Of a stretch of DNA of 37,449 nt, positions 4,526-18,144 are shown one piece after another (position 1 is the first letter of the stretch; every line of letters starts with the position of its first letter). Below the pieces are notes generated by a model. The model made no database searches and had not been told where the DNA came from. It saw only the letters and a program-made list of their open reading frames with translations. The stretch covers positions 1 through 37,449 of the forward strand of contig JAHBYL010000027.1 of assembly GCA_019635955.1 (NCBI GenBank). The letters run 5' to 3'. Source of the stretch: Parvibaculum sp. (GTDB taxonomy: Bacteria; Pseudomonadota; Alphaproteobacteria; Parvibaculales; Parvibaculaceae). Both the position numbers and the translations under genes were made by a program.

Positions 4526-6046
4526 TCAGGCCGGCTGCCAGAAGCCATGGAAGGAAAAAGGCAGAGGCCCCTCAAGGTGAGCTATTGCAATAGGGCCGTC
4601 TTCGATATGTGCAGCATTCAGCACTGCGAAGAAGCTGGTGCCGGTTTCTCCGTTGAGGCCCTGAACGACGAGCCAGCCTTGTTCTTCGCTCCTTGCGCCG
4701 CCGCTATTGCCGGGCGCGGGGGCGAAGATCGGTTCGCTTATCCAGTTCATGTCACCGAATTCATAGGAACGGGTCTGTCCGGTGGCCGTGTCGATTGCTG
4801 CAACACCGGAGTGAAAAATGCGGTTTCCGCTGCCGCGCGAGGTGAAGACCGTGCGGTGTTGGCGGAGGGCATCCGCTGGATTGATGACGGGAAACTCGAA
4901 GGCGGCATCGGCGATGAGCTCTTCTCGGGCCGTGCCATCTGCAAGATCGATTACATAGCGATAGATGCGGCCGGGTTCGTTCGCTTCGCCCAGCTCACCG
5001 CGCATGATGGCTTGGAAGGCTGAGCTTTCTTTCAGAAAGTGATCGGGTGCGTCGTACCCAATAAAATCGGCGACGAGGGTGCCCCGGTCTTCATAGGCGT
5101 TGGCGGCATGCCACATCCATCGGCCGGGGACGTCCAGATAGCGCACAGCACCGCCATCTTTCGGAACGATTACCAGCACGTTGCCCTCGGCTCGATTCCA
5201 TTCGAGGCTGTCGGCGAAGGAGCGGGTGCCGCTGAGGAAAGGCACGAGTTTCAAGAAGGCAGGTTGTAGGCTGAAGACAATATAGTTCCGAGTGGCGAAA
5301 AAATCATGCAGATAGGTCTGGCGCGGCGCAGTGAAGCGCGGCAATGCAGTCACGCGGCCATCCTTGTGGTGGATGGACGCCTGCAATTCCATCGCTCGGC
5401 CGAATTTTCCTCCGACAAGAATCCAGTCGCCTGTCTCCGGATCGATCTTCGTGTGCGCCTTGATGGCGGTGTCTTCATTCATCCCGTGCGGCACGGTACC
5501 CCTTGTCTCTAGGGTAACAGGATCGAGTTCGTATGGCGGGCTCACCTCATCAAGCGCCATGAGGCGCCCATTGACTTCGTAGACCGTGATGCCTGCCTGC
5601 GTCTTGAAGCCTTGCCCGCCGACATTGCGCAGGAATCCGGCAGGCGATTTCGTGGTCCATGTGGGATAGAGGAAGCGACCGGCCGATTCTTCTTCGATCA
5701 GCTTTTCAGTCTGCACGAAGCGGGAAGTATGAATGACGCGCCCGTTTTCGAAGCGCAGTGCCTGCACGATACCGTCGCCATCGAGGATGTTTCCCTTCGA
5801 GGCTCCTTGCCGTTCGAACAGGCCCGGGCCATTGCGGTAGAGCGTGCCTCGAAGCTGGTCTGGCAATCTGCCTTCGAGACGAAGCGGGGCGGGGCCGAGC
5901 TCTCGGGTGTTCTGCCCAAGCGGAGCCAACCAGCCGGCACGTTGCAGCGTTGCGGCTTTTGCCTTTCCCGACATAAGCGGCGCGGCAAGTCCGAGGGCAG
6001 CAAGGGCCGAGAGGCCCGCTGTCATTTCACGACGGGTCAGGCTCAT
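4526..6046 (-). CDS. Carotenoid/stilbene cleavage oxygenase (RPE65 family), exported
   Basis: This non-haem iron dioxygenase family cleaves a carbon–carbon double bond in carotenoids, apocarotenoids or lignin-derived stilbenes. The 506-residue length is normal for the family. All four iron-binding histidines are visible: H198 (KAHTKID), H247 (YLHDFF), H313 (MWHAANA) and H500 near the C-terminus (FHGFW). The chosen start at 6046 gives a Tat-like signal, LTRREMTAGLSALAALGLAAP, ending in AKA, so the enzyme is probably moved folded to the periplasm; the much longer open frame upstream overlaps the DoxX gene and is not used. It lies 23 bases after the DoxX-like gene on the same strand, and the pair faces away from a TetR regulator, so the two are probably co-regulated. 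The substrate is not determined. Confidence 0.92.
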   Translation of the reverse strand: MSLTRREMTAGLSALAALGLAAPLMSGKAKAATLQRAGWLAPLGQNTRELGPAPLRLEGRLPDQLRGTLYRNGPGLFERQGASKGNILDGDGIVQALRFENGRVIHTSRFVQTEKLIEEESAGRFLYPTWTTKSPAGFLRNVGGQGFKTQAGITVYEVNGRLMALDEVSPPYELDPVTLETRGTVPHGMNEDTAIKAHTKIDPETGDWILVGGKFGRAMELQASIHHKDGRVTALPRFTAPRQTYLHDFFATRNYIVFSLQPAFLKLVPFLSGTRSFADSLEWNRAEGNVLVIVPKDGGAVRYLDVPGRWMWHAANAYEDRGTLVADFIGYDAPDHFLKESSAFQAIMRGELGEANEPGRIYRYVIDLADGTAREELIADAAFEFPVINPADALRQHRTVFTSRGSGNRIFHSGVAAIDTATGQTRSYEFGDMNWISEPIFAPAPGNSGGARSEEQGWLVVQGLNGETGTSFFAVLNAAHIEDGPIAIAHLEGPLPFSFHGFWQPA

Positions 6047-6069
6047 GGGAGATACTCCATTTGCAGGGG

Positions 6070-6552
6070 TCAGACGGGTTGAGATGGGGCCGTCGCGCTG
6101 TGCCTGCCGATAATGCCTCCCGCATAGAGCGCCCAGACGATGATGAGCGGCTGGAAGAAGAGACGAATCCAGTAATAGGTGGAGGATTGCGGCAGGCCCT
6201 CGACGCTTAGGCCGTAAATCGCATTGTGAATATTGGCGGGGAAGACGGCGACCGCATAAAGCGCAAGCATGAGCGCGGCAATTCGCGTGAAGCGAGGCCA
6301 TAGAAGTCCGACGGCACCTGCAATTTCGCAAAGACCGGTGAAGAAGATCACCTCCGGGTGAAAGGGCACGAAAGGGGGCATCATTGCCAGGTAACGCTCC
6401 GGCGTAACGAGATGGTCTATGCCGACGAATAGGAAGGCCGCGCTCATGCCTATGCGCATGGCTAACCGGTGGTCCTTCAATGAAGCCACGCCGAGCTTGC
6501 CGGCGGTCCAGGCGAAGACAGCTATCGCCGACATCATGATCACGAAGGCCAT
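6070..6552 (-). CDS. DoxX-like four-helix membrane protein
   Basis: A 160-residue inner-membrane protein with four hydrophobic segments. The stretch FLFVGIDHLVTPERY, followed by FFTGLCEIAGAVGLL and the late motif PANIHNAIYGL, is typical of the DoxX/DoxX-like family, whose members are often found beside redox enzymes and may pass electrons or bind quinone. The ATG at 6552 was preferred to the adjacent in-frame GTG at 6555; both have only a weak AGGAA ribosome site. It is the first gene of a two-gene minus-strand operon with the carotenoid-cleaving oxygenase, read from the promoter and operator at 6582–6624. Its exact job is unknown. Confidence 0.8.
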   Translation of the reverse strand: MAFVIMMSAIAVFAWTAGKLGVASLKDHRLAMRIGMSAAFLFVGIDHLVTPERYLAMMPPFVPFHPEVIFFTGLCEIAGAVGLLWPRFTRIAALMLALYAVAVFPANIHNAIYGLSVEGLPQSSTYYWIRLFFQPLIIVWALYAGGIIGRHSATAPSQPV

Positions 6553-6581
6553 CACCGGTTCCTGCAGATTGTGAAGGGTTA

Positions 6582-6600
6582 ATCTTTACAGTGTTAAGAT
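6582..6600. promoter_or_regulatory. Near-perfect palindrome, probable TetR operator
   Basis: The 19 bases ATCTTTACAGTGTTAAGAT form a palindrome with a single mismatched symmetric pair around the centre (6591). It overlaps the -10 of the minus-strand promoter and sits in the gap between a TetR gene and the genes read divergently from it, the usual place for such a repressor site. Binding by this TetR is inferred. Confidence 0.75.
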
Positions 6601-6624
6601 ATGTACTGATGTTGACGTTGTCAA
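6596..6624 (-). promoter_or_regulatory. Promoter of the DoxX/carotenoid oxygenase operon
   Basis: On the minus strand a perfect TTGACA (complement of 6619–6624) is followed, after exactly 17 bases, by TATCTT (complement of 6596–6601), four of six to the -10 consensus. The expected start of transcription is near 6590, leaving a leader of roughly 35 bases before the DoxX-like gene. A second small palindrome, TTGAC GTT GTCAA (6612–6624), covers the -35. Confidence 0.65.
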
Positions 6625-6647
6625 GACATTGGGGCAAATTGACTTGT

Positions 6648-7298
6648 GTGAGAAAAAAGCGAGAAAAATCAGCATCTTCCGGTGATGCCGCCGTAAAAAA
6701 ATATCACCACGGCGATCTGAAAAGCGCCTTGGTCGCGGCCGGAACGCGTATCTTGGAAGAAGATGGCGTTATGGCGCTTTCACTCAGAGGTGCCGCCCGT
6801 GCAGCGGGAGTTTCGCAGACGGCGCCTTATCACCATTTCGCGGACAAGGAAGCGCTGCTCGCGGCTATCGCCGCAACCGGCTTTGAGGACCTCTCGGCGG
6901 AGATGGCGCGGCGGGCGGCAGGCGTCTCAACTGCGCAGGACCGTCTGAGCGCACTCGGGCTCGGATATGTGATGTTTGCAACGGCGAATCCGGGCCGGTT
7001 CCGGCTGATGTTCGGTCCGCTGGTGGGAGAGAAGACGCAATATCCGGCGCTGCTTGAAGCGGCGACCTTGTCCTATCGAATGATCCATGGCGCGGTGGCG
7101 GCCTATCTGGATGCGAGCGCTACGCCGAACCGGAATGTCGATGCCAATTCCATGGCAGCGTGGTCGCTGGTTCACGGGCTGGCGACTCTCATCAATGATG
7201 GAGGTTTCCATGCGGACGTCATGGGGGCGGCGACACTCGAAGAGTTGACCGCATTGGTAACCGGTTTCTTGCGCAAGGGGCTTGGACAGAAACCTTGA
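6648..7298 (+). CDS. TetR family transcriptional repressor
   Basis: A 216-residue DNA-binding repressor. The helix-turn-helix is in the N-terminal third: YHHGDLKSALVAAG, then MALSLRGAARAAGVSQTAPYHHFADKEALL, the second helix pair and the typical YHHF–K–LL ending. The C-terminal half (MFATANPGRFRLMFGPLV…) resembles the WHG-type ligand-binding domain. The start is uncertain: GTG 6648 is preferred because GTG 6591 and ATG 6609 lie within the operator and promoter region, but the ribosome site at 6648 is weak. It is divergent from the DoxX-like/carotenoid oxygenase operon and likely represses it, and perhaps itself, until a hydrophobic ligand binds. It is the last chromosomal gene before the island. 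Confidence 0.88.
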   Translation: MRKKREKSASSGDAAVKKYHHGDLKSALVAAGTRILEEDGVMALSLRGAARAAGVSQTAPYHHFADKEALLAAIAATGFEDLSAEMARRAAGVSTAQDRLSALGLGYVMFATANPGRFRLMFGPLVGEKTQYPALLEAATLSYRMIHGAVAAYLDASATPNRNVDANSMAAWSLVHGLATLINDGGFHADVMGAATLEELTALVTGFLRKGLGQKP

Positions 7299-7399
7299 AT
7301 GGGCGTCTCTGGCCAGCGGCTTCCAACGCACCGGCTCTTGCCCCTCAGGAATCCTGTTCGGACGGTCTTGATATGATGTCTGAGGCGAACCAATAGAAA

Positions 7400-7417
7400 T
7401 TGGCTGGGGGACTAGGA
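7400..7417. repeat. attL: left 18-bp copy of the tRNA-Gln 3' end
   Basis: TTGGCTGGGGGACTAGGA is identical to 16507–16524. It equals the last 17 bases of the tRNA-Gln gene read from the other strand, plus one flanking T. It is a tRNA fragment only, since the sequence right after it no longer matches. It is therefore the displaced original 3' end at the left junction. Confidence 0.92.
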
Positions 7418-7572
7418 CCCCTGCGATTCGAGTTTTCTATCAATGATATCAATATCTTACGGGGTGTGCGAGTCTCTGAGTCGCGCAAACTTGTGCCGCA
7501 CCCTAGATTTACTTACTCGCAGTGGGCGTTAGAATTGCCGATATTAAGACTGTCGGAGATGAGGTTCGACAA

Positions 7573-8295
7573 ATGCCAGACTTTTTCGAGAAGGCATACT
7601 ACCACGAATTTGAAAGAAAAGATAAAATAACAAGCGGAACGAGTATTTCTATTACTGTAATTACAGCAATAGGAGGCGGTGTTTTCTATATTGCTGACAG
7701 CTTTATACAGAATATAAATCGAATAAGTGTTATGGAGGTGGCTTTCTCTCTATCTTTTGCCCTTTGTATTGGATTTCTTGTTTGTAGTTCGGTGTATTTT
7801 ATTAGAGTAATTAACAGCGTATACTACGAATATCTTGATGACCCAAAATCTCTAAAAGATTTTTATGATAAACTGGAAGCTTACTACAAGCAGGAACATA
7901 AAGCCGGTCATCCGACCTATATTACACACTTGGCGCAACGGGAATTTGACGAATATCTAAAGGAAAGCTACGCGAAATGCGCGACCATAAATTACAAGAG
8001 AAATGTTGACAAAGGATACTTCAAGGATAGAGGGCAATTTTATTTGTTTCTTTCGATGCCTTTTGTCGTTTTGTGCGCACTTCTTCTTTTGGTGTCCAAG
8101 TTTAGTGAGCGTGAGTTTTCCAGTATCAACGGCGCTGAGTGTGGAGCAATAGTGGAGTGGAAAATGACAGATGACGACAAGAAGCCTGCAGAGCAGGAGG
8201 CGGAACCAGTGAAATTGGACAAGCCCGTTGGCCCGCCAACACGCCAGTACAAAGATGGTTTTGACCCTCGCCGAATAAAGAATAGTGATGAGTAG
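7573..8295 (+). CDS. Three-segment membrane protein of unknown function (island cargo)
   Basis: I do not recognise this 240-residue protein. ATG 7573 was chosen because GAGG at 7561 gives a well-spaced ribosome site; an in-frame GTG at 7522 is possible. Predicted membrane segments are near residues 24–45 and 54–80, forming a tight hairpin, and 156–175. Between the second and third lies a charged, Tyr-rich helical region of about 75 residues. The C-terminal 45 residues are a polar, Lys/Glu/Pro-rich tail. The two-helix hairpin followed by a long helix recalls SLATT-type two-helix effectors of bacterial defence systems, but this is only resemblance. Base use is very different from its neighbours (22 of 60 bases are G or C at 7621–7680), suggesting separate acquisition. 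It lies 89 bases before the restriction-modification gene on the same strand. Confidence 0.75.
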   Translation: MPDFFEKAYYHEFERKDKITSGTSISITVITAIGGGVFYIADSFIQNINRISVMEVAFSLSFALCIGFLVCSSVYFIRVINSVYYEYLDDPKSLKDFYDKLEAYYKQEHKAGHPTYITHLAQREFDEYLKESYAKCATINYKRNVDKGYFKDRGQFYLFLSMPFVVLCALLLLVSKFSEREFSSINGAECGAIVEWKMTDDDKKPAEQEAEPVKLDKPVGPPTRQYKDGFDPRRIKNSDE

Positions 8296-8384
8296 CGTTT
8301 GACGACTAAGTTGGACGGGCACTGGCGATTTGGTGCCCGTCCCACGATGACCGCGATTGGGCACGGCGAGATGCTGGGGTGGGA

Positions 8385-11297
8385 ATGACGCCGGAAGAAT
8401 TCGTTGCGAAATGGAAAGCCAGCACTCTGACAGAGCGCGCGGCCTCTCAAAGCCAGTTCAATGACCTCTGCCGAATGCTGGGAGAGCCTACGCCGACCGA
8501 AGCCGACCCCTCCGGCGCGACCTATGCGTTTGAGAAAGGCGCCAGCAAGGCCACCGGCGCGGGCGGCTGGGCCGATGTGTGGAAGCAGGGCTTCTTCGCT
8601 TGGGAATACAAGGGTAAGGGAAAGGACCTCAACGCAGCTTTCGCCCAGCTCCAGCAATATTCCGGCGCGCTGGGCAATCCTCCTCTGCTCGTCGTGTCTG
8701 ACATGGCCCAGTTCCGCGTGACTACCGCGTGGACGAATACCGTTTCCAAGACTTACGACCTTACGCTTGATGACCTGCTCGACCCGGCGAAGCGCCAAAT
8801 CCTGAAGTGGGTCTTCTCGGACCCGGAGAAGCTGAAGCCAGGTCAAACACGGCAAGCTCTTACGGAAGACGCGGCGAAGGAATTCGCAAATCTTGCCCTG
8901 CGGCTCCGGTCGCGCGGTCATGACCCGCATGTCGTCGCGCACTTCGTGAACCGGCTTGTGTTTTGTATGTTCGCGGAAGACGCGGAGCTCCTGCCGAACA
9001 AAATGTTCCAGCGCATGGTGGAAGCATCTTTGACTGAACCGGAGCGGTTCGAGCCGATGGCCGGGCAATTGTTCGGTGCGATGAAGTCGGGCGGCCTTGT
9101 CGGCTTCGAAACCGTCGAGTGGTTTAACGGCGGGCTCTTCGATGACGATAGCGCCTTGCCACTTGAACGGGATGACCTGAAAAACGTCCTCGCGGCATCA
9201 AGGCTCGATTGGACTGAAATCGACCCGTCAATTTTGGGAACGCTCTTTGAGCGTGGGCTTGACCCGGACAAGCGGAGCCAACTCGGCGCGCACTACACCG
9301 ACCGCGAGAAAATTCTCCGCATCATTGAGCCGGTCATTACCAAGCCTCTCCTCGCGGAATGGGCGGCGGTAAAGCCTGAAATTGAAACGCTTCTCGAAAA
9401 GTCGGAAGAAATCGCAAAAAAGGCGTCTGCCACACGGGCGGCTGCGAAAGCAGGAGCGTTGACCAAACAGCGGAACGCGCTTCGCGGTGAAGCTGAATCC
9501 AAGTTTCGGTCATTCCTTGAGCGGTTGCGAGCTTTTCGTGTGTTGGACCCAGCCTGCGGCTCGGGGAACTTTCTCTATCTTTCCTTGCTGGCATTGAAAG
9601 ACTTAGAGCTTCAAATCAGTATCGAAGGCGAGGCGTTGGGGCTTGAGCGCCAATTTCCCTCGATTGGCCCGGAATGCCTGCTCGGTATCGAGATAAATCC
9701 GTATGCGGCGGAACTCGCGCGCGTCAGCGTCTGGATAGGTGAGCTCCAGTGGATGAAACGAAATGGTTTTGGCGCCCGGAAGAATCCTATTCTGATAAAT
9801 TTGAACACCATTGAAAATCGCGATGCGGTCGTCAATGGCGATGGCACAGAGGCTTGCTGGCCTCCGGCAGATGTCATCGTCGGCAATCCGCCCTTCTTAG
9901 GGGCCAAGCTAATGAAGCGGCGCCTCGGCGTTGTGGAAACGGAAGCCTTGCGACGGGCCTATCAGGGGCGATTGGCAGGATTTACCGATTTGGTGTGCTA
10001 CTGGTTTGAAAAGGCACGAGCTCAAGTGTCGTCGAACCTGACGCAGCGAGTGGGATTGGTCGCAACAAGCTCCATCCGAGGCGGAACCAACAGGCCAGTA
10101 TTAGACCGCATTCATTCCGAGCACTGTATCTATGATGCTTGGTCAGCGTTGCCGTGGACTATCGAAGGCGCGCGAGTCGAAGTCTCACTGATATGTTTCA
10201 GCAGGAAGGGAACAAAGCTTCCAGTTCATTTGGATGGTGAGCCGGTTCGTCAGATTAATCCTGACCTGACGACAGGACTAAACCTCACGACCGCGCAACC
10301 ACTACCAGAAAATAGAAATGTTTCTTTCCTTGGAATACAGAAAAGCGGTCCGCATGACGTTGAAGGCGTAATTGCTAGACAGTGGATGTCGCTGCCTATG
10401 AACCCCAACAACCGGCCCAATTCCGAAATCCTCAAGCCGTATTGGAACGGAGATGACGTCACAGGAAGGCCGCGAGACGTTTGGATAATCGACTTTCCCG
10501 CAGGACTTTCAAGGATGGAGGCTTCTTTGTATGAGGCACCATTCCACTACCTAGAATCGTCTCCTTATGACCCGGACGACCCTACGGATACGAGGACCTT
10601 GGTAGAGGCGCGCGCGCAAGCTAGAGATAAGCATGCTCAGACTCGATGGTGGGAGCCGTATTGGCCGCGCCCCGACATGCGCGGACACGTCGCGCGTTTG
10701 TCTCGCTATATCGTTACCACGGAGACATCGGAGCATCGATTGTTCGTTTGGCTATCGTATCCCGAACTTGCTGACAAAAATCTTATTGTCATCGCGCGGG
10801 ACGATGACACAACGTTTGGCATTTTGCATAGCCGGTTCCATGAAAGTTGGTCGCTGAGATTAGGCACGAGCTTGGAGGACCGTCCGCGTTATACCTCGAC
10901 AACTACATTTTCCACCTTCCCCTTTCCTGAAGGGCTTACGCCTAGTCTCCCTACGTCGGATTATGCGAACGCTCCGAACGCTATTGCGATTGGCAAAGCG
11001 GCAAAGAAGCTCGATGAACTGCGGCGCGCTTGGCTCAATCCGCCTGACCTCGTGAAAGTCGTTCCCGAGGTGGTGCCCGGCTTTCCCGACCGCATTCTTC
11101 CAAAGGATGAGGAGGCGGCGAAGGTTCTGAAGGGCCGAACACTTACCAATCTCTATAACCAACGCCCTGCGTGGCTTGAGCATGCGCACAAAGAACTTGA
11201 TGCCGCTGTCGCTGCTGCCTACGGGTGGCCAAAGAATATTTCTGATGACGACGCGCTTGAGGCCTTGCTTGAATTGAACAGAGCGCGCGCCGGATAG
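8385..11297 (+). CDS. Type IIL (MmeI-like) restriction endonuclease and adenine methyltransferase in one chain
   Basis: This 970-residue enzyme should both cut unmodified DNA and methylate adenine in its recognition site. An N-terminal PD-(D/E)xK nuclease is visible as D64-x9-E74-Y75-K76, the exact D-x9-ExK spacing known for MmeI. A helical spacer follows (about 150–370), then the N6-adenine methyltransferase with the SAM motif DPACGSG (388–394) and catalytic NPPF (501–504), then a target-recognition region (about 620–850) and a C-terminal helical part. Enzymes of this family methylate one strand only and cut about 20 bases away; whether that holds here is inferred. ATG 8385 follows a G-rich stretch; GTG 8379 is also possible. 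No separate restriction or specificity subunit is needed or present. The recognition site cannot be read from the sequence. Confidence 0.9.
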   Translation: MTPEEFVAKWKASTLTERAASQSQFNDLCRMLGEPTPTEADPSGATYAFEKGASKATGAGGWADVWKQGFFAWEYKGKGKDLNAAFAQLQQYSGALGNPPLLVVSDMAQFRVTTAWTNTVSKTYDLTLDDLLDPAKRQILKWVFSDPEKLKPGQTRQALTEDAAKEFANLALRLRSRGHDPHVVAHFVNRLVFCMFAEDAELLPNKMFQRMVEASLTEPERFEPMAGQLFGAMKSGGLVGFETVEWFNGGLFDDDSALPLERDDLKNVLAASRLDWTEIDPSILGTLFERGLDPDKRSQLGAHYTDREKILRIIEPVITKPLLAEWAAVKPEIETLLEKSEEIAKKASATRAAAKAGALTKQRNALRGEAESKFRSFLERLRAFRVLDPACGSGNFLYLSLLALKDLELQISIEGEALGLERQFPSIGPECLLGIEINPYAAELARVSVWIGELQWMKRNGFGARKNPILINLNTIENRDAVVNGDGTEACWPPADVIVGNPPFLGAKLMKRRLGVVETEALRRAYQGRLAGFTDLVCYWFEKARAQVSSNLTQRVGLVATSSIRGGTNRPVLDRIHSEHCIYDAWSALPWTIEGARVEVSLICFSRKGTKLPVHLDGEPVRQINPDLTTGLNLTTAQPLPENRNVSFLGIQKSGPHDVEGVIARQWMSLPMNPNNRPNSEILKPYWNGDDVTGRPRDVWIIDFPAGLSRMEASLYEAPFHYLESSPYDPDDPTDTRTLVEARAQARDKHAQTRWWEPYWPRPDMRGHVARLSRYIVTTETSEHRLFVWLSYPELADKNLIVIARDDDTTFGILHSRFHESWSLRLGTSLEDRPRYTSTTTFSTFPFPEGLTPSLPTSDYANAPNAIAIGKAAKKLDELRRAWLNPPDLVKVVPEVVPGFPDRILPKDEEAAKVLKGRTLTNLYNQRPAWLEHAHKELDAAVAAAYGWPKNISDDDALEALLELNRARAG

Positions 11298-11338
11298 ACG
11301 CAGGCGTTATCTCTGATGAATTCCTGCTAAAGAAAATT

Positions 11339-11361
11339 GCCCCCGGCCATTGGCCGGGGGC
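11339..11361. terminator. Two-way terminator between the restriction-modification gene and the 105-residue orphan
   Basis: An uninterrupted palindrome, GCCCCCGGCCA (11339–11349) with TGGCCGGGGGC (11351–11361), lies between two convergent genes. On the plus side it is followed by TTTGCC; on the minus side by AATTTTCTTT. The minus-strand T-run is the better of the two. Confidence 0.8.
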
Positions 11362-11369
11362 TTTGCCTG

Positions 11370-11687
11370 TTATCGTCCGGAAATGGAATTGACCTTACCC
11401 GACAACGGTCCGATGTAGTGGATGTCATAAAGACGCAAAAACGCCACTATGGTATCGTTGACTATCTCCAAGAACTCGACAGTTTGAATGGCCTCAGGAC
11501 ATTGAGGAATGACCCCTCCGTCCCTGAATGTGGCATTGGGCATTCTATGCCCGAATATGCCTTCGACTAGGCCAGCGAGTTTATGAAAGTCACGAGTAAG
11601 GTCGTTAATCAGGCCTAAGATAATCTTGTCGAAGACCTGCTGTTCCACTTCTCCAAGCTCAATAACAATCGGCATACGGTTCGTCAT
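11370..11687 (-). CDS. Small hypothetical protein (island orphan)
   Basis: I do not recognise this 105-residue protein. The start at 11687 (MTNRMPIVIELGEVEQQ) is favoured by a well-spaced AGAGGAA ribosome site. The N-terminal two-thirds look helical and mildly hydrophobic, with no membrane segment or zinc motif; the late part has EFLEIVNDTIVAFLRL. It is soluble in appearance and has no obvious DNA-binding helix-turn-helix. It is the only minus-strand gene between the restriction-modification gene and repA. A 15-bp palindrome at 11752–11766 and the 25-bp hairpin lie upstream of its start, so it may share control signals with repA. A role as an element-maintenance or excision factor is possible but unsupported. 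Confidence 0.6.
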   Translation of the reverse strand: MTNRMPIVIELGEVEQQVFDKIILGLINDLTRDFHKLAGLVEGIFGHRMPNATFRDGGVIPQCPEAIQTVEFLEIVNDTIVAFLRLYDIHYIGPLSGKVNSISGR

Positions 11688-11751
11688 GTTGGTATTCCTC
11701 TGGGGAGTTGATAATTGTCTCCCGCGGGGCAACAGCAAGCACTCCGAGACC

Positions 11752-11766
11752 ACACGATAATCGTGT
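11752..11766. promoter_or_regulatory. Perfect 15-bp palindrome, possible operator
   Basis: ACACGAT A ATCGTGT is an exact inverted repeat with a one-base centre. It lies between the divergent orphan gene (start 11687) and repA (start 11980), in the only large non-coding control region of the island. Its size and shape suit a dimeric repressor, but none is recognisable in the element. Confidence 0.5.
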
Positions 11767-11814
11767 CAGGCGGAAATTAACGAACGGTTTCATTGCGCGA
11801 TTGTGCGCGCACAG

Positions 11815-11869
11815 AGCAGGCTTACTTACGCCTCCCCCCTAAAAGGGGGGAGGCGTAAGTAAGCCTGCT
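11815..11869. repeat. Perfect 25-bp inverted repeat with TAAAA loop upstream of repA
   Basis: The left arm 11815–11839 and right arm 11845–11869 are exact reverse complements, separated only by TAAAA. The stem includes TTACTTACGCCTCCCCCC and its complement. No T-run follows on either side, so it is not a standard terminator. Its position before a replication helicase gene suggests a replication origin, transfer origin or copy-control structure; that is inference. Confidence 0.8.
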
Positions 11870-11979
11870 GACCCCCCTTCTTAAAATGGTCTGAACGGGC
11901 GCCCGCAATCATTCTTCGGTTTTGGCAGACGGACCCATATCGAGAGTTCCCGACCACGGCCTCGTATGGAGCAACTGCC

Positions 11980-13041
11980 ATGAAATCTCTGCCCACTCCG
12001 AACTACACCCGTTCCTTCGCGGAAGAAGCATCAGCGTTTGGCTTTACGTCCCTCCCGGATGTCCTCGACCGCGATTTCCCACTCCACCTTGTCCGAGGGC
12101 TCTTCCCCCAAATCGGCACCACCTGCTTATTCGGTGCTCCGGGCACGGGCAAAAGCTTTATGGGGCTGGACGTCGTGCTCTCAATTGCTGCGGGGCGCGA
12201 TGTGCTAGGCCGCGCGAGCCTAGAAGGCATGACGGTCTATCTCTCCACAGAGGGGAAGGCAGGCTTGAAGGCGCGAGCCATCGCTTGGGCTAAGGCGCGG
12301 GACATCGAAATCGAAGATTTGCCCGTTGCGCTTATCGAGGAGGCCATGAACTTGCGCGACCCGGAGGTTGTCGCAACCCTTATCGACCGCATTAAGCGGC
12401 TCGCAGAAAACACCGGCGTGCCGTGTCGGTTTCTGTGTGTCGATACCCTCTCGCAGTGTTTGTTCGGTGACGAGAACAGGCAAGAGGATATGGCCCAGTT
12501 CACCGGCGCAATGACCAAAATTGCGAATGCGCTTGGGACGCAAGTGTGCGTCGTCCATCACTCGGGCAAAGATAAAACGAAAGGGGCGCGCGGCAGCTCA
12601 GTCATAAACGGAAATTTCGACACCCTGTTGGCGCTTGATGAGGGCGATTGCGATGGTCAACTCGTATTGCGCGCCGGTAAGCAGAAAAATGACGGCAAAT
12701 CGGCCGTCGTCATCATGCTCGATAAGGTCGAGTGCGGCGTAGATGCGGATGGCGAGCCCGTATACTCTTTGGTCGTTTCCGACGAGAGCGGCGCACTTGC
12801 GGACGCCGGTAACGACAATCAGCCGGGTGCCTTGTCGCTTCCGCCGATTGCGGAAAAAGTCCTCGCAGTTCTGCGAGAGGCGGGCCCGGATGGTTTGGAC
12901 GCGCTTGAGTGGCGCAAGCGCGCACAGGAGGCAGGCGTCGGGCCACAGCGTCCCGCTACCGCGCATGAGTGGATTAAGAAGCTCGTTGCGCGCGACTTTG
13001 TCGAAGTGCGCGCGGATGGCCGGCATGTGGTGCGGGACTGA
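11980..13041 (+). CDS. repA: RepA-like replicative helicase ATPase (RecA fold)
   Basis: A 353-residue hexameric-type ATPase of the plasmid RepA/AAA_25 group, which unwinds DNA at an origin. Seen in order: Walker A GAPGTGKS (52–59), the strand STEGKAGLKARA (about 89–100), Walker B FLCVDT with D155, and the sensor stretch VVHHSGKD (191–198) followed by KGARGSS, all in the order expected of RecA-fold helicases. The C-terminal 75 residues look like a winged helix (LDALEWRKRAQEAGVG…ARDFVEVRADG). The start at ATG 11980 has a GGAG ribosome site about ten bases before it. No separate initiator (RepC-type) gene is visible. It implies that the excised element can replicate, or uses the helicase during transfer. 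Confidence 0.85.
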   Translation: MKSLPTPNYTRSFAEEASAFGFTSLPDVLDRDFPLHLVRGLFPQIGTTCLFGAPGTGKSFMGLDVVLSIAAGRDVLGRASLEGMTVYLSTEGKAGLKARAIAWAKARDIEIEDLPVALIEEAMNLRDPEVVATLIDRIKRLAENTGVPCRFLCVDTLSQCLFGDENRQEDMAQFTGAMTKIANALGTQVCVVHHSGKDKTKGARGSSVINGNFDTLLALDEGDCDGQLVLRAGKQKNDGKSAVVIMLDKVECGVDADGEPVYSLVVSDESGALADAGNDNQPGALSLPPIAEKVLAVLREAGPDGLDALEWRKRAQEAGVGPQRPATAHEWIKKLVARDFVEVRADGRHVVRD

Positions 13042-13049
13042 TGGCGGGT

Positions 13050-13106
13050 GGATACGCCAGCACCCCGCAGGGGCAGGCGTATCCATCTGCTGCGCGCTAC
13101 GCGCGC
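13050..13106. repeat. Two stem-loops in the repA–mob gap, candidate transfer origin
   Basis: The first hairpin pairs GGATACGCC (13050–13058) with GGCGTATCC (13076–13084) and has an inner CCCC/GGGG pair around GCA. The second is GCGCGC TAC GCGCGC (13092–13106). Neither is followed by a T-run. The 226-base gap precedes a relaxase gene, where transfer origins usually lie. No confirmed nick sequence was recognised. Confidence 0.5.
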
Positions 13107-13267
13107 CTAGCGCCGCAGGCCCGGCATTTGTGAGCGCCCATAGGCTGGCGAACAAATATAGTCGGTCGCTAGATATCTCCCTTGGCTTCCTCTCACGTCC
13201 AAAAACTTACGCGGCGCATTTGACCGCTCCCTTTCGGTTCCTAAGTAGACAGGAGAAAGGGGCTGCG

Positions 13268-14392
13268 ATGGCGTTTCAGTTTCTCCATGTCGACATAGTG
13301 TCGCGCGCGGTCCCAAAGAAGTCGCTCGCTAAGCGGTGGGCATTGCGAGACGTGTTGGCCGAGGCCGGTCGGGAAGCTGGTTCCTGCCCGCATGTCGAAA
13401 ATCCTCGCCCGCCTGCGCGTCTCTTCGGCCTGAACTTGCCCGATGTCGAGCGGGCTACTCTGCGCCAGGCCGAGGAGGCGCGCGATGCCAAGGGGAGAAG
13501 GTTGCGGAAAGATTCGCCGGTCATGCTTGCCGGGGTGCTCTCCTACCCGGTAGCGGTTGCCGAGCTGAACGAGCGCACACAGGCCGATTATGCGGCGTGG
13601 GAGGGGCGCTCCCTGAAATGGCTTGCCCGGCGCTACGGAGATACGCTCGCGTCAGTTGTCCGGCACGAGGATGAGGCTTATCCGCATCTGCATTTTTTTG
13701 TCGTTCCGCACATCACGAGCGATAAGCGAATTGACTTGGAAGCCATTCATCCCGGTATCGCGGCGAGAGAGACCGCGAAGCGCGACGGGAAGAGCACCAA
13801 AGAAGCGAACAGGATGTATTGCGCGGCGATGCGAGCGTTTCAGGACGATTTTCACACGAACGTAGGCGTGTTCCACGGGCATCTTCGTGAGGGGCCGCGC
13901 CGTCGCCGTCTCTCACGCGGCGCTTATATGGCGGAGAGACGAGACGCAGAAAGGAGAGCGGACATGATGACGCGGATAGAAGTCGATTTGGCGGAGCTGG
14001 AGGAATTGAGACTGGCGAAAGTGGGGGTGGATGATTTGCGAAACCGGACATCGCTTCTCGAAACCGATAACGCACACTTGCGCAAGAAAAATGCTGTTCT
14101 GGAAACATCGCTCGCATCGACATCTCGCGCGCTTGAAGCCGAACAAAAGCTTAAGAAAAAATGGCTGTTGACGGCGCGACACTCGGGCGAGGTTGTGATG
14201 GGGCTCATTTGTTTTCTCGTGAGCGGGAAAAAGAGGTTCCGCGATTTGCTGCTCGCATCCGATATGCCGCTTGGAGTGCTGCCGGAGACTTGGAACCAAA
14301 TGCGGCGATTTCTCTCCGGCGCTGGCGATGCTCCGGGCGCCTTCGAAAGGGAGTCACGGCAGACGCGCAGACGCGACGGCGATTCGCGTTGA
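13268..14392 (+). CDS. mob: MobV-like relaxase (Mob/Pre plasmid recombination family)
   Basis: A 374-residue protein that would nick the transfer origin and lead a DNA strand out of the cell with helper conjugation machinery. The diagnostic metal-binding motif is visible at 133–142, HEDEAYPHLH, matching the family's HxDE…PHxH, followed by FFVVPH. The start at ATG 13268 (MAFQFLHVDIVS) follows AGGAGAAAGG; the open frame continues about 525 bases upstream, but that part runs through repA and has no relaxase character. Residues 230–300 look like a coiled coil (ELEELRLAKVGVDDLRNRTSLLE). The C-terminal part has a mildly hydrophobic stretch, VVMGLICFLVSG. It is convergent with the integrase gene. 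Confidence 0.82.
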   Translation: MAFQFLHVDIVSRAVPKKSLAKRWALRDVLAEAGREAGSCPHVENPRPPARLFGLNLPDVERATLRQAEEARDAKGRRLRKDSPVMLAGVLSYPVAVAELNERTQADYAAWEGRSLKWLARRYGDTLASVVRHEDEAYPHLHFFVVPHITSDKRIDLEAIHPGIAARETAKRDGKSTKEANRMYCAAMRAFQDDFHTNVGVFHGHLREGPRRRRLSRGAYMAERRDAERRADMMTRIEVDLAELEELRLAKVGVDDLRNRTSLLETDNAHLRKKNAVLETSLASTSRALEAEQKLKKKWLLTARHSGEVVMGLICFLVSGKKRFRDLLLASDMPLGVLPETWNQMRRFLSGAGDAPGAFERESRQTRRRDGDSR

Positions 14393-14472
14393 ACAGTGAG
14401 CGGATGGATGGAAAAGGCCCTTTCCGCCTTGCGTAATTCGCTCTCTCGTCGCCTGAAGCGCGCTTGCGCCGT

Positions 14473-14506
14473 CCCTCTCTACGCTTCGCGCCGCGAGAGG
14501 GGCCGT
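14473..14506 (+). terminator. Possible terminator after mob
   Basis: CCCTCTC (14473–14479) pairs with GAGAGGG (14495–14501), and GCCGTTTTA follows. The loop is long (15 bases), and the structure overlaps the last codons of the convergent integrase gene, so confidence is modest. Confidence 0.45.
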
Positions 14507-16398
14507 TTTATCGGGCCTGTTTTGAGGCTTAGCCGCTCCACCACCTGCCGCTTCTGCTGAATGGATACATCCTTGCCATAGACATAGCTTGTGATGCGCT
14601 CATCTTCGTGCCCGACGACGACGGCAATCAGGTCCGATGGAACGCCCGAATTCCGGAGCCATTGAACGAATGTATGCCGGAAGCTGTGGAAATCAGTCTG
14701 CGGATAATAAATCCCGAGAGATTGCCGGTAGTATCGGAACCATCGCCCCACCTGCTCACCGTATTCCTTCGATGCGCCCGTCGGGCGAAGGTCCGGGAAA
14801 AGGGCCGCCCGCTTTCCGCGCCGCTCGACATATTCACGGAACCCCAACTCGATAAGTTGGGAGTGAATGGGAATCTCCCGATTGGCAGCCTCAGATTTGA
14901 GGTGTCGGCCTTCGGTTGCCTGAATCCTGACGAGCCAAATCCCCTCGACTTCATCGAAATCGCTGGTGCGCAGGCGCGCCACTTCTTCGCGGCGCATGCC
15001 AGTGTAGAGCGCAATCAATGGTGCCCAGTAACGCCAATCGTCAATTATCAGCTTGCCCGGCTTGGTGCGCACGGCCTTGCTGGCGCAGCCTTGCCAAATC
15101 GGCGTTGCGAAGAGTTCGAGCAGCTGTTCCTGAGAGTAACGGGTGCGGGTGCCTCTACGCGCGGTTTCGGTTCGCAAGAGACGCTTTTTGTAAAGCGCTC
15201 CTGCGAACGGGTTCATCGGTTGAAGGCTGCGCGGCACCAAGCTTGACCGCCAGAGGCTCGTAAAGAAACTCAGATGCTTGTTGGCCGTCTTCTTGCGCAT
15301 GCGTTCAGCCTTTTTCTGCGCTTCAATGCGGCTGAACTCAACGCCCTCGAACAGGATGGTTTCCTGTTCGCCGCTCTCGTTGATGGCATCTTCGAGGCGG
15401 TCGGCAATCTTGATTGCTTGGCGCGGCGTCTTTTTCGCATAGATGCCCCTGCCGTATTCGCGAGGCATGCGGAGGAGTTGTTCGGCAAGTTTCTTGCTGT
15501 GATTTGGCATTATGTCATTGATGCGGATATCGCCTACTAGGTCGAGGAAGTATCGAAGCGCGATGCGGTCGTCCCGCTCGGTTTTCATTGCTGCGCCATT
15601 CGCCTGACGCAGTTCGATGAACTCTTCGCCAATCGTCCGCACATACTGAGATAGGAAATCCGCTTCTTCCCGTCCGAGTTTCTTGCTCCACGGGTCAATC
15701 AATGGGCTGTCGTCGGGGTATTTCTGGGAAACAAAGCTCGGGATGCCTTGCGCGGAATCGTGATGCCCGCGCCAGCGTTCCGCCTCAATGGCATAAGCGC
15801 GCGCGATAACACGGTTTGCGTCTCGGGCGAGCACATCATATTGGGGGTCGTCATGGGTGAGAGAGACGCCGAAGGCTTTGAGTTCTTCGTCCAAGATAGG
15901 CTTTACATCTTCGGTGATGTTTCCTTCGGCGAGGCCTCCCCATTTGACGGCCTTATTTTCGGGGTGCTCCGCGTCCGCTTGTAGTCCCGCGATGTAGGCG
16001 TCCCAATCGTCAGCGGTCCATTCCTCGCGATTTTCCGAACTGAGCGCGATTGGCTCCTCTACGGGGTCGCCCTCGGCATATCGAGCGAGCCCGTGGGGCT
16101 CCGCATCGCGTTTTGCGGTGCCCTCTTCAAGAATCCGGTTGAACAAGCTTTCCAGCACGAGACGCATTTGAAGTCGGGTAGGGCTGAAGCGGGCGGGAGC
16201 GTTCATAAGGAATTCCTCTAGGCGGTCCATTGCGGCAGACACCGCCCGCGCGCGCCTGCGGGCCAAACCGGGCACCGGAGTCCGAAGCGACTTCACAAGG
16301 TGGGTTTGGCGCAGAGCCGCGCTCAGGCGCGCCGGTAGTCTGGCTCGCCAGTAGTAAATGGCGCCTCTACGGTGGAGGTGGGTTTGTCGGGTGGGCAT
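14479..16398 (-). CDS. int: Tyrosine recombinase / integrase (DUF6538-type N-terminus)
   Basis: This 639-residue site-specific recombinase inserts and excises the island at the tRNA-Gln gene. The N-terminus (HLHRRGAIYYWRARLPARL) matches the DUF6538-type arm-binding region, and the long middle (about 100–400) is the core-binding part. Catalytic residues are visible: R469 in YTGMRREE, a likely K501 in HLKSEA, H571-x-x-R574 in HSFRHT, H597 in GHEDE, and the nucleophile, Tyr605 or Tyr607 in TSYVYGKD. It lies 109 bases from the tRNA and is read away from it, typical of tRNA-integrating islands. The start at 16398 has a GGAG eight bases before it. Nothing is broken, so it is probably active. Confidence 0.92.
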   Translation of the reverse strand: MPTRQTHLHRRGAIYYWRARLPARLSAALRQTHLVKSLRTPVPGLARRRARAVSAAMDRLEEFLMNAPARFSPTRLQMRLVLESLFNRILEEGTAKRDAEPHGLARYAEGDPVEEPIALSSENREEWTADDWDAYIAGLQADAEHPENKAVKWGGLAEGNITEDVKPILDEELKAFGVSLTHDDPQYDVLARDANRVIARAYAIEAERWRGHHDSAQGIPSFVSQKYPDDSPLIDPWSKKLGREEADFLSQYVRTIGEEFIELRQANGAAMKTERDDRIALRYFLDLVGDIRINDIMPNHSKKLAEQLLRMPREYGRGIYAKKTPRQAIKIADRLEDAINESGEQETILFEGVEFSRIEAQKKAERMRKKTANKHLSFFTSLWRSSLVPRSLQPMNPFAGALYKKRLLRTETARRGTRTRYSQEQLLELFATPIWQGCASKAVRTKPGKLIIDDWRYWAPLIALYTGMRREEVARLRTSDFDEVEGIWLVRIQATEGRHLKSEAANREIPIHSQLIELGFREYVERRGKRAALFPDLRPTGASKEYGEQVGRWFRYYRQSLGIYYPQTDFHSFRHTFVQWLRNSGVPSDLIAVVVGHEDERITSYVYGKDVSIQQKRQVVERLSLKTGPIKRPLSRREA

Positions 16399-16417
16399 TC
16401 GAGCGCTCCGGGAGGGC

Positions 16418-16457
16418 GCTGCGCGGACATACAGGTGTCACACCTGCGTTGCGCAGC
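16418..16457. repeat. Nested inverted repeats between int and the attachment site
   Basis: An outer pair GCTGCGC (16418–16424) and GCGCAGC (16451–16457) encloses an inner pair CAGGTG TCA CACCTG (16432–16446). It lies 20 bases upstream of the int start and about 50 bases from attR. It could be an integrase arm site, an excisionase site or an operator on the int promoter. Confidence 0.6.
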
Positions 16458-16506
16458 GAGAGCGGAGCCCTAGAAACCCCTGACAAATCAATAGCTTATG
16501 ATGTGT

Positions 16507-16524
16507 TTGGCTGGGGGACTAGGA
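16507..16524. repeat. attR: right 18-bp copy inside the intact tRNA-Gln gene
   Basis: TTGGCTGGGGGACTAGGA, identical to attL at 7400–7417. It covers the CCA end, the 3' acceptor strand and part of the T-stem of the tRNA gene. The element therefore restores a full tRNA at its right junction. Confidence 0.92.
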
Positions 16525-16581
16525 TTCGAACCTAGACTGGCGGAGTCAGAGTCCGCTGTCCTACCGTTAGACGATCCCCCA
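16508..16581 (-). tRNA. tRNA-Gln (anticodon CUG)
   Basis: The 74-base minus-strand sequence folds as a full cloverleaf. Its acceptor TGGGGGA pairs with TCCCCCA, followed by G and an encoded CCA. The anticodon stem GCGGA/TCCGC encloses CTCTGAC, giving anticodon CUG, which reads CAG glutamine codons. The T-arm is CTAGG TTCGAAT CCTAG. The U1–A72 pair and G73 are glutamine-type identity features. Its 3' end is the insertion site of the island. Confidence 0.97.
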
Positions 16582-16851
16582 ATGGCGTGCGGCAAATCCG
16601 TGGGTTTCCGCCGTTTCCGGCTCGACTCGCGGGCTGCCATGGCCTTGGTTGCGCGCGAAACTAGTCTCAGGGCTCTCATTCGTCAACTCCTTGAGGCGGT
16701 TGAAATATTCTCCCGTCCTTTACCCCGCGGCCCAGCCTGCTAGACTTCACTCAACTGAAAAAATTAGGGAATCCGGTGCGGAGCGCGGTCCAGTTGTCTG
16801 GGCCCGGCGTTTCCCGGGTCTGAAGAAGTGCACCAAGAAGGTGACGGCGGC

Positions 16852-18144
16852 ATGAGTCCCCCCACAGGGACGGCTGCCGCGGATCAAGGGCCGTCTGCGC
16901 GCCCGCCCTCGGCCGCCGGTCCGTCCGGTAGCAACGGAGGCGGCGAGGGCGAGCGTGAAGGCCCGGCGAAGAAGTCTCGCCGGCGCCGCCGCCGCGGCCG
17001 TCGCGGCAAGGGCGGCGACCGCGCCGCCGTTCAAACCCCGAAACAGCCCGCACCTCCGGCGAAAAGTCCGGCAAAGCCGCCGCCACCGCGCGCCGCGTCC
17101 GCCCAGCCCGACCAGCTCTATGCCGCGTTGGACCTCGGCACCAATAATTGCCGCCTTCTCGTCGCCCGCCGTGCGCCGGAGGGCTTCAAGGTTGTCGATG
17201 CCTATTCCCGCATTGTCCGCCTCGGCGAGGGTCTGGTGGGCAGCGGCGAACTCGGCGAGGCCGCAATGTCCCGTGCCATCGACGCCTTGAGGATCTGCGC
17301 CGACAAGATGAAGCGCCGGGGCGTCACCCGCGCGCGAACCATCGCCACCGCCGCCTGCCGCACTGCGGCGAATGGGACGGATTTCATTGCCCGCGTGAAG
17401 CGTGAAACCGGCCTCTCCCTCGAAATCGTCTCGACGGAAGACGAGGCACGTCTTGCTGTTGCCGGCTGCGCACCCCTGCTCGACAGCGAATGCGCCTCCG
17501 CTCTGGTATTCGACATCGGGGGCGGCTCGACGGAACTCATCTGGGTCCGCCTTGAAAACAAAGGGAACGGCAAATGCCGTCCTGTGATCGGCGACTGGAT
17601 TTCGCTTCCCTGCGGTGTCGTCACGCTCGCCGAACATCATGGCGGCGTCGATGTGCCCTCCGAAGTCTATGATCGCATGGTTGCCGAAGTGGCGGATCGC
17701 CTTGCGCCTTTCCTCGGCCGCCTGCGGGAGGAGCGCGACAATCATCGCCCATTCCACCTGCTCGGCACCTCCGGCACCGTCACGACGATTGCCGGCGTCC
17801 ATCTCGGCCTCGAGCGCTATGACCGCACGCGGGTCGATGGCATCTGGATTTCGCCCGCCGATGTTCACAGCGTCACCCGTTCGCTGCTTGCCATGGATTA
17901 TGCCGAGCGTGCCGCACATCCCTGTGTCGGGCAGGAGAGGGCGGATCTGGTGCTCGCAGGCTGCGCGATCTTCGAGGCGATTGCCGATGCCTGGCCGGCC
18001 GACCGCCTGCGCGTCGCAGACCGCGGCCTGCGCGAGGGCATTCTCATGTCGCTGATGGAAGCGGATGCGAGCAGGCGGCACCGCCGTCGCCGCCGCCGTA
18101 AACCGTCGCGCCGCACCGCGACTCGTCCAGAGGTTTCGGCATAA
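16852..18144 (+). CDS. ppx: Ppx/GppA family exopolyphosphatase or pppGpp phosphatase
   Basis: A 430-residue ASKHA-fold phosphatase that releases phosphate from polyphosphate or converts pppGpp to ppGpp. The catalytic domain begins near residue 88 with [16 protein letters not shown] (phosphate loop 1), then [13 protein letters not shown] (phosphate loop 2) and [11 protein letters not shown]. It lacks the long C-terminal HD part of full-length Ppx, like other short Ppx/GppA proteins. The N-terminal 85 residues are low-complexity, Pro/Gly/Ala-rich, with a run of Arg and Lys ([16 protein letters not shown]); the C-terminus is also Arg-rich. ATG 16852 was chosen for its AAGAAGGTG ribosome site; an in-frame GTG at 16828 is possible. 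Its stop shares one base with rlmE, so the two are translationally linked. Confidence 0.9.

Follow-up and report, generated by a model that had tools for sequence, protein, structure and literature searches.

The question raised by this locus is what kind of element lies beside the tRNA-Gln gene of a Parvibaculum genome, and by which route it might move. The window (the whole analyzed stretch of 37,449 nucleotides) comes from contig C122 of a 3.26-Mb genome, which comprises 201 contigs and is 86.8% complete and 5.4% contaminated. Two exact 18-bp direct repeats, 9107 bp apart from start to start, bound a 9.1-kb island whose G+C content is 55.8%, against 59.9% and 63.2% for the flanks. By simple arithmetic, chance recurrence of an 18-mer within 9 kb is not expected. 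An intact tRNA-Gln (CUG), the integration target, was detected by ARAGORN (ctg) at 16508–16581 on the minus strand and scored 62.4 bits against the Rfam tRNA model, so that the right-hand repeat spans the last 17 bases of the tRNA gene. It is the only tRNA reported by ARAGORN in the window, and an Rfam scan of positions 7000–17000 gave nothing besides it. The repeats were hence assigned as the distal attachment site (7400–7417, plus strand), which is a copy of the tRNA-Gln 3′ end, and the tRNA-side attachment site (16507–16524, plus strand). Next to the tRNA lies a gene for a predicted 639-aa tyrosine integrase with DUF6538 and Phage_integrase matches in Pfam (14479–16398, minus strand), whose start is 108 nt from the tRNA-side repeat. 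The first-pass annotation had claimed the exact repeat, the intact tRNA at the right end, an integrase gene beside it, and repA, mob, and Type IIL genes within, all of which were borne out by the repeat search, ARAGORN, and domain matches. It had further proposed that tRNA-Gln loci of related genomes be compared for an empty site, and such a site was found in G002 of the same genus, where one 18-bp copy is located between homologues of both flanks. A homologue of the TetR-type gene is followed there by 30 bp, the single 18-bp copy, tRNA-Gln, and ppx, and the left and right flanks are 86–89% and 94–95% identical to those of the window, respectively. This is the one empty site found with a homologous left flank. 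Of the DNA that precedes the left repeat, up to the TetR-type gene (window about 7299–7399), approximately 80 bp have no counterpart in G002.

The island was accordingly examined as an integrative and mobilisable element (IME), a compact form of which had been claimed to use the tRNA-Gln 3′ end as attB. This is supported by the G002 empty site, as well as by a near-identical copy in G021, the order of the IIL, rep, mob, and int genes at the G001 tRNA, and a predicted oriT. The claimed absence of conjugation and capsid genes also held, since none of the island proteins that were scanned matched a mating-pore (T4SS), coupling-protein, or capsid family. As no coupling protein was recognised on the island, a helper would be needed; a VirB4-type domain is present in 10 of the 27 genus genomes, including the window's own. 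We regard it as very probable that the island is an IME of a modular Parvibaculum family, which integrates into tRNA-Gln, is transferred by a helper from its oriT, has its Rep act at a palindrome, and carries a Type IIL gene as cargo. Recombination by the integrase would take place between the 18-bp attP and the tRNA-Gln (CUG) 3′ end, which is identical to it, and would leave the tRNA intact, with the catalysis and the control of direction presumed. After excision, the MOBV-type relaxase would nick the oriT upstream of its own gene, putatively between 13165 and 13166, and the strand would exit via the conjugation pore of a co-resident element acting as the presumed helper. The RepA-like ATPase may then act at the upstream palindrome, where it would copy the circle, maintain it, or complete the strand that has been transferred. 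Of these steps we infer excision, replication of the circle, and helper-driven transfer, and likewise the restriction activity. One further frame of 127 aa (11370–11753, minus strand) may be a small gene, for which an open reading frame is the evidence; it gave no match in Pfam, PADLOC, or PHROGs and two NCBIfam matches far below the cut-off.

If any part of the element is new, it is most likely the pair formed by the palindrome and Rep. The rep gene (11980–13041, plus strand) encodes a 353-aa ATPase similar to RSF1010 RepA, as judged from AAA_25 (1e-28) and PDB entry 1g8y (E 9.8e-7 with profile A2), which shares the ATPase core over profile positions 46–213. The ATPase also matches phage helicase-primase families in PHROGs. 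Rep was found in six of the 40 genomes of the order, and in the plasmid collection it matched 272 records, all below 60% identity, two of which cover 80% of Rep. Its structure model was set aside owing to a pLDDT of 46.7, and a winged-helix C-terminus read by eye is not claimed. IncQ plasmids use the RepB primase, the RepC initiator, and iterons along with RepA. Unlike RSF1010, the island has no recognised RepB or RepC partner and has a long palindrome beside rep; since the RepA-like ATPase is all that was recognised, the island was not filed as IncQ. The palindrome (11815–11869, plus strand) is perfect, with 26-bp arms and a 3-nt spacer, and is situated 110 bp upstream of rep as a candidate origin or Rep-binding site. 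The longest arm in 30 Markov copies of the window was 12 bp, and the single strand of the palindrome folds 9.8 standard deviations below shuffles. Palindromes were also observed in G026 (perfect 29-bp arms), G025 (22-bp arms, 95%), and G001 (26-bp arms, 96%, of another sequence). In each of the four loci that can be read, the palindrome precedes the rep start by about 107–245 bp; four is the full count because contig ends cut the stretch in G005 and G021. A scan for perfect palindromes recovered the window and G026 repeats and gave no perfect arms of at least 12 bp in the G001 and G025 stretches, where the palindromes are imperfect. A 15-base half-site occurs in three of the 27 genus genomes, solely within these palindromes. 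The palindrome is nearly the same where Rep is 75–76% identical, and differs but is still palindromic where Rep is 34% identical, which suggests from four examples that the palindrome and Rep change together.

Two readings of this palindrome were weighed. It is quite possible, though short of probable, that the palindrome serves as an operator, or else a terminator, and does not belong to an origin, as it sits where an operator would be expected, upstream of rep in four loci. However, its arms of 22–29 bp are long for either, and neither of its sides is followed by a run of T in the window or G026, making a terminator unlikely. The other reading, which we put forward tentatively and with more doubt than assent, is that the palindrome and the RepA-like ATPase constitute a minimal two-part replication or strand-priming origin of an undescribed kind, in which the palindrome would be read by Rep and both parts diverge together. 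If true, elements of 5–10 kb that exchange integrases and cargo would form a family with this palindrome–Rep origin as its fixed core. An imperfect inverted repeat with 21-nt arms (13044–13090, plus strand, 81% complementary) was also observed between rep and mob. This repeat and its G001 counterpart (locus L066, 14729–14769) each share a half-site with the palindrome of the same element, which by eye is TACGCC in the window and GACGGACGCTTC in G001. The shared half-sites look as if Rep bound both repeats.

Movement of the island between species was evaluated using G002 and G021. Core genes compared over 8 kb are 94% identical to the window in G002 and 88% in G021; nevertheless, the element copy is present in G021 and absent from the closer relative G002. 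Since each genome in the collection represents one species, this indicates that the element moved between species. Integration into tRNA-Gln is hence shown by comparison, namely by the att repeats, the empty site, and the presence and absence between species. The comparison also bears on the possibility that the island is by now decayed and immobile, having lost excision or transfer. No excisionase was recognised on the island, no helper was identified, and G005, in which a remnant of the integrase is left beside this tRNA, shows that islands of this kind do decay. Against this, the frames are open over their full length, and the DNA of the G021 copy, as far as a 5-kb contig covers it, is 96.9% identical over 3.3 kb, while the flanking DNA is 87–88% identical (87% for tRNA-ppx), which speaks for recent movement. 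Furthermore, dN/dS values of 0.087 for int and 0.126 for mob against G021 speak for selection on both genes since the transfer between species. A decayed island is thus improbable, and a mobile IME remains the preferred reading.

The mob gene (13268–14392, plus strand) encodes a 374-aa protein identified as a MOBV-type relaxase from Mob_Pre, its motif, and Foldseek matches to MobM. The open frame begins at 12743, and both G001 homologues begin at the equivalent of 13268. Pfam Mob_Pre gave 27.5 bits, just over the cut-off of 25.5, and NCBIfam MobV gave 39.7 bits, below the cut-off of 100. In a PDB sequence search, MobM ranked third (E 0.077) behind two unrelated proteins. A structure model with a pLDDT of 75.5 gave MobM at all of ranks 1–7 in the PDB by Foldseek, with E values of 5.4e-5 to 1.5e-3 and TM scores (target) of 0.51–0.59, in a loose superposition with an rmsd of 6.0–9.4. 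Because Mob_Pre is barely over and MobV under its cut-off, and MobM is weak by sequence and loose in fold, the protein is called MOBV-type. The HxDExxPHxH motif, which is characteristic of the pMV158 superfamily as described for pHW126 (PMC2831885), was invariant in seven of seven Mob proteins at H133, D135, E136, P139, H140, and H142. At E 1e-15, the relaxase profile detected eight of the order's 40 genomes; these belong without exception to the window's genus and include two, G017 and G024, with distant matches only. Across the class, it detected one of 385 genomes, the window's own, with at most five candidates scored per genome. A search of genome contigs with the Mob alignment gave four loci, all in Parvibaculum sp. 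MAGs, with G001 not among them.

A putative oriT (13121–13175, plus strand) was predicted upstream of mob from structure, covariation in chosen sequences, and the published description of pMV158 IR3. Its 11-bp stem is formed by 13121–13131 pairing with 13152–13157 and 13161–13165, including one G–T pair; an ATA bulge (13158–13160) is present in the right arm only, and the loop in the window is 20 nt long. The predicted nick, based on this structure and the IR3 description, is at 13165/13166 (G/T), where GTCGG is followed by T, 102 bp upstream of the mob start. The block upstream of mob is kept in all six readable Parvibaculum loci, including a second G001 locus having no rep, with a 5-bp outer stem (CCGRC/GTCGG), a 3-nt right-arm bulge, a 6-bp inner stem, and a loop whose length varies. 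Covariation was evaluated with 11 sequences, all picked for fitting, of which six are from Parvibaculum and five from plasmids of Aeromonas, Citrobacter, Klebsiella, and Comamonas. In these 11 chosen sequences, 121 of 121 stem cells are paired and four inner pairs are changed on both sides. The covariation score was 0.357 compared with 0.200 for shuffled alignments, none of 500 shuffles being as high, and sliding the alignment left at most 42% of cells paired. When only the five distinct inner stems were dealt anew, 45 of 5000 shuffles paired as fully. A second repeat around the predicted nick pairs in 89% of cells.

The hairpin was less uniform among relatives. Of the 12 plasmids fetched, five fitted exactly, two fitted with a 4-nt bulge (pKAM330_9 and p3_SCLZS52), two had the AGTCGGT block without a clean stem (p_apl32 and pPMA4326E), two lacked the block (pSTW0522-72-4 and pPMA4326D), and in pHW126 the hairpin was cut by the record start; the block itself occurs in pHW126 and nine of the other 11. 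The five fitting plasmids were typed as non-mobilizable by MOB-suite, and among four typed as MOBV, one fits, with a 4-nt bulge. Three more distant Mob genes of the genus (in G001, G017, and G024) are without the block. As the hairpin is missing from part of the relatives, it marks one clade of these Mob proteins and not all of them. The relaxase and this covarying hairpin led us to reject, as hardly credible, the alternative of a phage satellite that a helper phage would package in place of transfer by conjugation. The small size, the tRNA integration, the phage-type integrase, and the ATPase matching phage helicase-primase families would speak for such a satellite, but none of the proteins scanned matched a capsid, terminase, or packaging family. 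When viral contigs were searched with mob, int, and rep under strict patterns, which detect close relatives only, 5, 24, and 9 candidate stretches came up, respectively, and not one was confirmed.

Comparison of tRNA-Gln loci places the IME within a wider family. The tRNA-Gln (CUG) gene was not found in G012, G020, and G023, leaving 24 of the 27 genus genomes; G006, G009, and G018 were left out because of a flank below 500 nt, and the remaining 21 have at least 1.6 kb of flank. A frame or remnant of the window's integrase family, the only one counted, opens within 75 nt of the tRNA-Gln 3′ end in ten of these 21 genomes (G000, G001, G005 as a remnant, G008, G010, G014, G019, G021, G022, and G026), and the other 11 gave no match to it within the available flank. 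The integrase is 97% identical in G021 and 49–55% at the same tRNA in G001, G008, G010, and G022; those of G014, G019, and G026 are only 25–31% identical to it. The G001 element is 10.0 kb long with one mismatch in the distal repeat, and carries IIL, rep, mob, and int in the order of the window at identities of 70%, 34%, 54%, and 49%, respectively. The elements of G008 and G010 span 15.2 and 17.0 kb between exact repeats, and for that of G022 the distal repeat was not found in 19 kb of flank. These three have an integrase 54% identical to that of the window, but MobA/MobL and DUF3987 proteins. The G008 cargo includes a Type III restriction-modification pair, and that of G010 a large helicase-nuclease matching the PADLOC models PDC-S37 and Hhe. 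At least four elements, those of the window, G001, G008, and G010, thus have restriction-modification or other defence-like genes between their att copies. As judged from these sequences, tRNA-Gln is a hot spot to which one integrase type brings different mobilisation modules. Separately, the 18-bp att sequence was observed near a different integrase, but with no tRNA, at position 7088 of locus L075 (G006:C38). The assembly G000 contains a second tRNA-Gln-ppx locus of 79% identity (locus L069 on C136, about 5320–6525), suggesting that two species are mixed in the bin.

The rep–mob pair was also found with other recombinases. In G026 and G025, rep (75–76% identical) and mob (61–63%) lie between duplicated 3′ ends of tRNA-Val (GAC), 5.0 and 5.5 kb apart, and the G025 repeat has one mismatch in the tested 20 nt. 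Their integrase has no DUF6538 match. With the rep–mob pair beside another integrase at tRNA-Val and the same integrase type beside MobA/MobL and DUF3987 at tRNA-Gln, the gene content is that of module swapping. These tRNA-Val siblings of about 5 kb are small enough for testing the replication of excised IMEs, which had never been studied as of 2017 according to a review (PMC5704250). In both tRNA-Val elements, the integrase frame (L092 4042–5874; L094 12194–13708) runs toward the tRNA and has no stop until it has passed the att site and the tRNA and entered the chromosome. The end of the protein would therefore change on excision.

The largest gene of the island (8379–11297, plus strand) encodes a predicted Type IIL (MmeI-like) restriction-modification protein of 972 aa, recognised with Pfam, PADLOC, and the PDB and regarded as cargo. 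Pfam MmeI_Mtase, MmeI_hel, and MmeI_TRD were over their cut-offs, the C-terminal domain was below (23.6 of 27), and the nuclease part gave no separate Pfam match. Together with the MmeI alignment, they place nuclease, spacer, methyltransferase, and TRD in one chain, and PADLOC matched type IIG at 2.4e-295. The match to MmeI (5hr4, E 1.7e-46) shows the same domain order, with the target recognition region only partly aligned, and a D and an E-x-K align with D70 and E80-x-K82, that is, with the D70, E80, and K82 given as catalytic residues in a paper on MmeI (PMC4833311). Of the order's 40 genomes, five carry the gene, and only two of them, the window's own and G001, have it at full length; its relatives in the plasmid collection are up to 63% identical. 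This cargo most likely protects the cell from foreign DNA through a putative restriction activity. An additional role in addiction, which the first-pass annotation had raised, is not supported, both activities being predicted in one polypeptide. A putative membrane protein (7522–8295, plus strand), so read from its hydrophobic stretches, has phrog_36961 (2.5e-6) as its only match. An ORF of the G001 element matches its N-terminal half at 55% identity, and it may hence be a second cargo gene.

Relaxase-carrying IMEs are a type already known. NBU1, IMESag-rpsI, and the tet(O) fragment resemble the island in having their own relaxase without pore genes, and some such IMEs share a tyrosine integrase at a tRNA 3′ end, MobV, and a replication gene, as the 2017 review describes (PMC5704250). 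What sets the island apart from them is that, in a member of the Alphaproteobacteria, a MOBV-type relaxase occurs together with a RepA-like ATPase and a long palindrome. The same review mentions IMEs of Firmicutes that have MobV and rep genes, as well as proteobacterial IMEs, some of which carry restriction-modification cargo, and states that, as of 2017, no proteobacterial IME of the class having a canonical relaxase without a coupling protein or pore had been described (PMC5704250). In a 2021 Mesorhizobium survey, IMEs have other relaxases, and those without traACD had a gene for a VirD4-like coupling protein (PMC8627217); a 2024 ocean survey places MOBV among three relaxases on an alphaproteobacterial contig classed as a plasmid (PMC11104534). 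A search of open-licence papers by titles and abstract starts, covering MobV and alphaproteobacterial IMEs and Parvibaculum islands, returned no description of such an element. The present locus offers an alphaproteobacterial IME that carries a relaxase and whose parts are located to the base, together with a testable nick site and an origin candidate.

The predicted oriT and Mob were further compared with two plasmid systems. According to the published description of pMV158 (PMC5863519), IR3 has a 12-bp stem, a 3-nt bulge in the right arm, and a G/T nick just at the 3′ end. The relaxase fold, the 3-nt right-arm bulge, the G/T at the 3′ end, and a second repeat at the nick are common to both, whereas the pMV158 hairpin has a 12-bp stem and 4-nt loop in place of 11 bp and 20 nt, and MobM is 12–17% identical to the window Mob in structural alignments. 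The second system, pHW126 of Rahnella and small Gram-negative Mob_Pre plasmids, is described as having an HxDExxPHxH relaxase and a putative oriT about 100 bp upstream of mob (PMC2831885), as in the window. Unlike the island, they are free plasmids with other rep genes and without an integrase, and their Mob is 34–39% identical to that of the window over about half of the protein.

A second mob (51% identical) of the same Mob/oriT type was observed in locus L095 of G001:C1 (about 6040–14458) with a large serine recombinase. Its locus gave no rep match, and an HTH-Dam protein adjoins mob. The recombinase adjoins the C-terminal part of a Mg-chelatase-like (comM-like) gene, the N-terminal part of which lies by eye on the opposite side, such that this element seems to split the comM-like gene.
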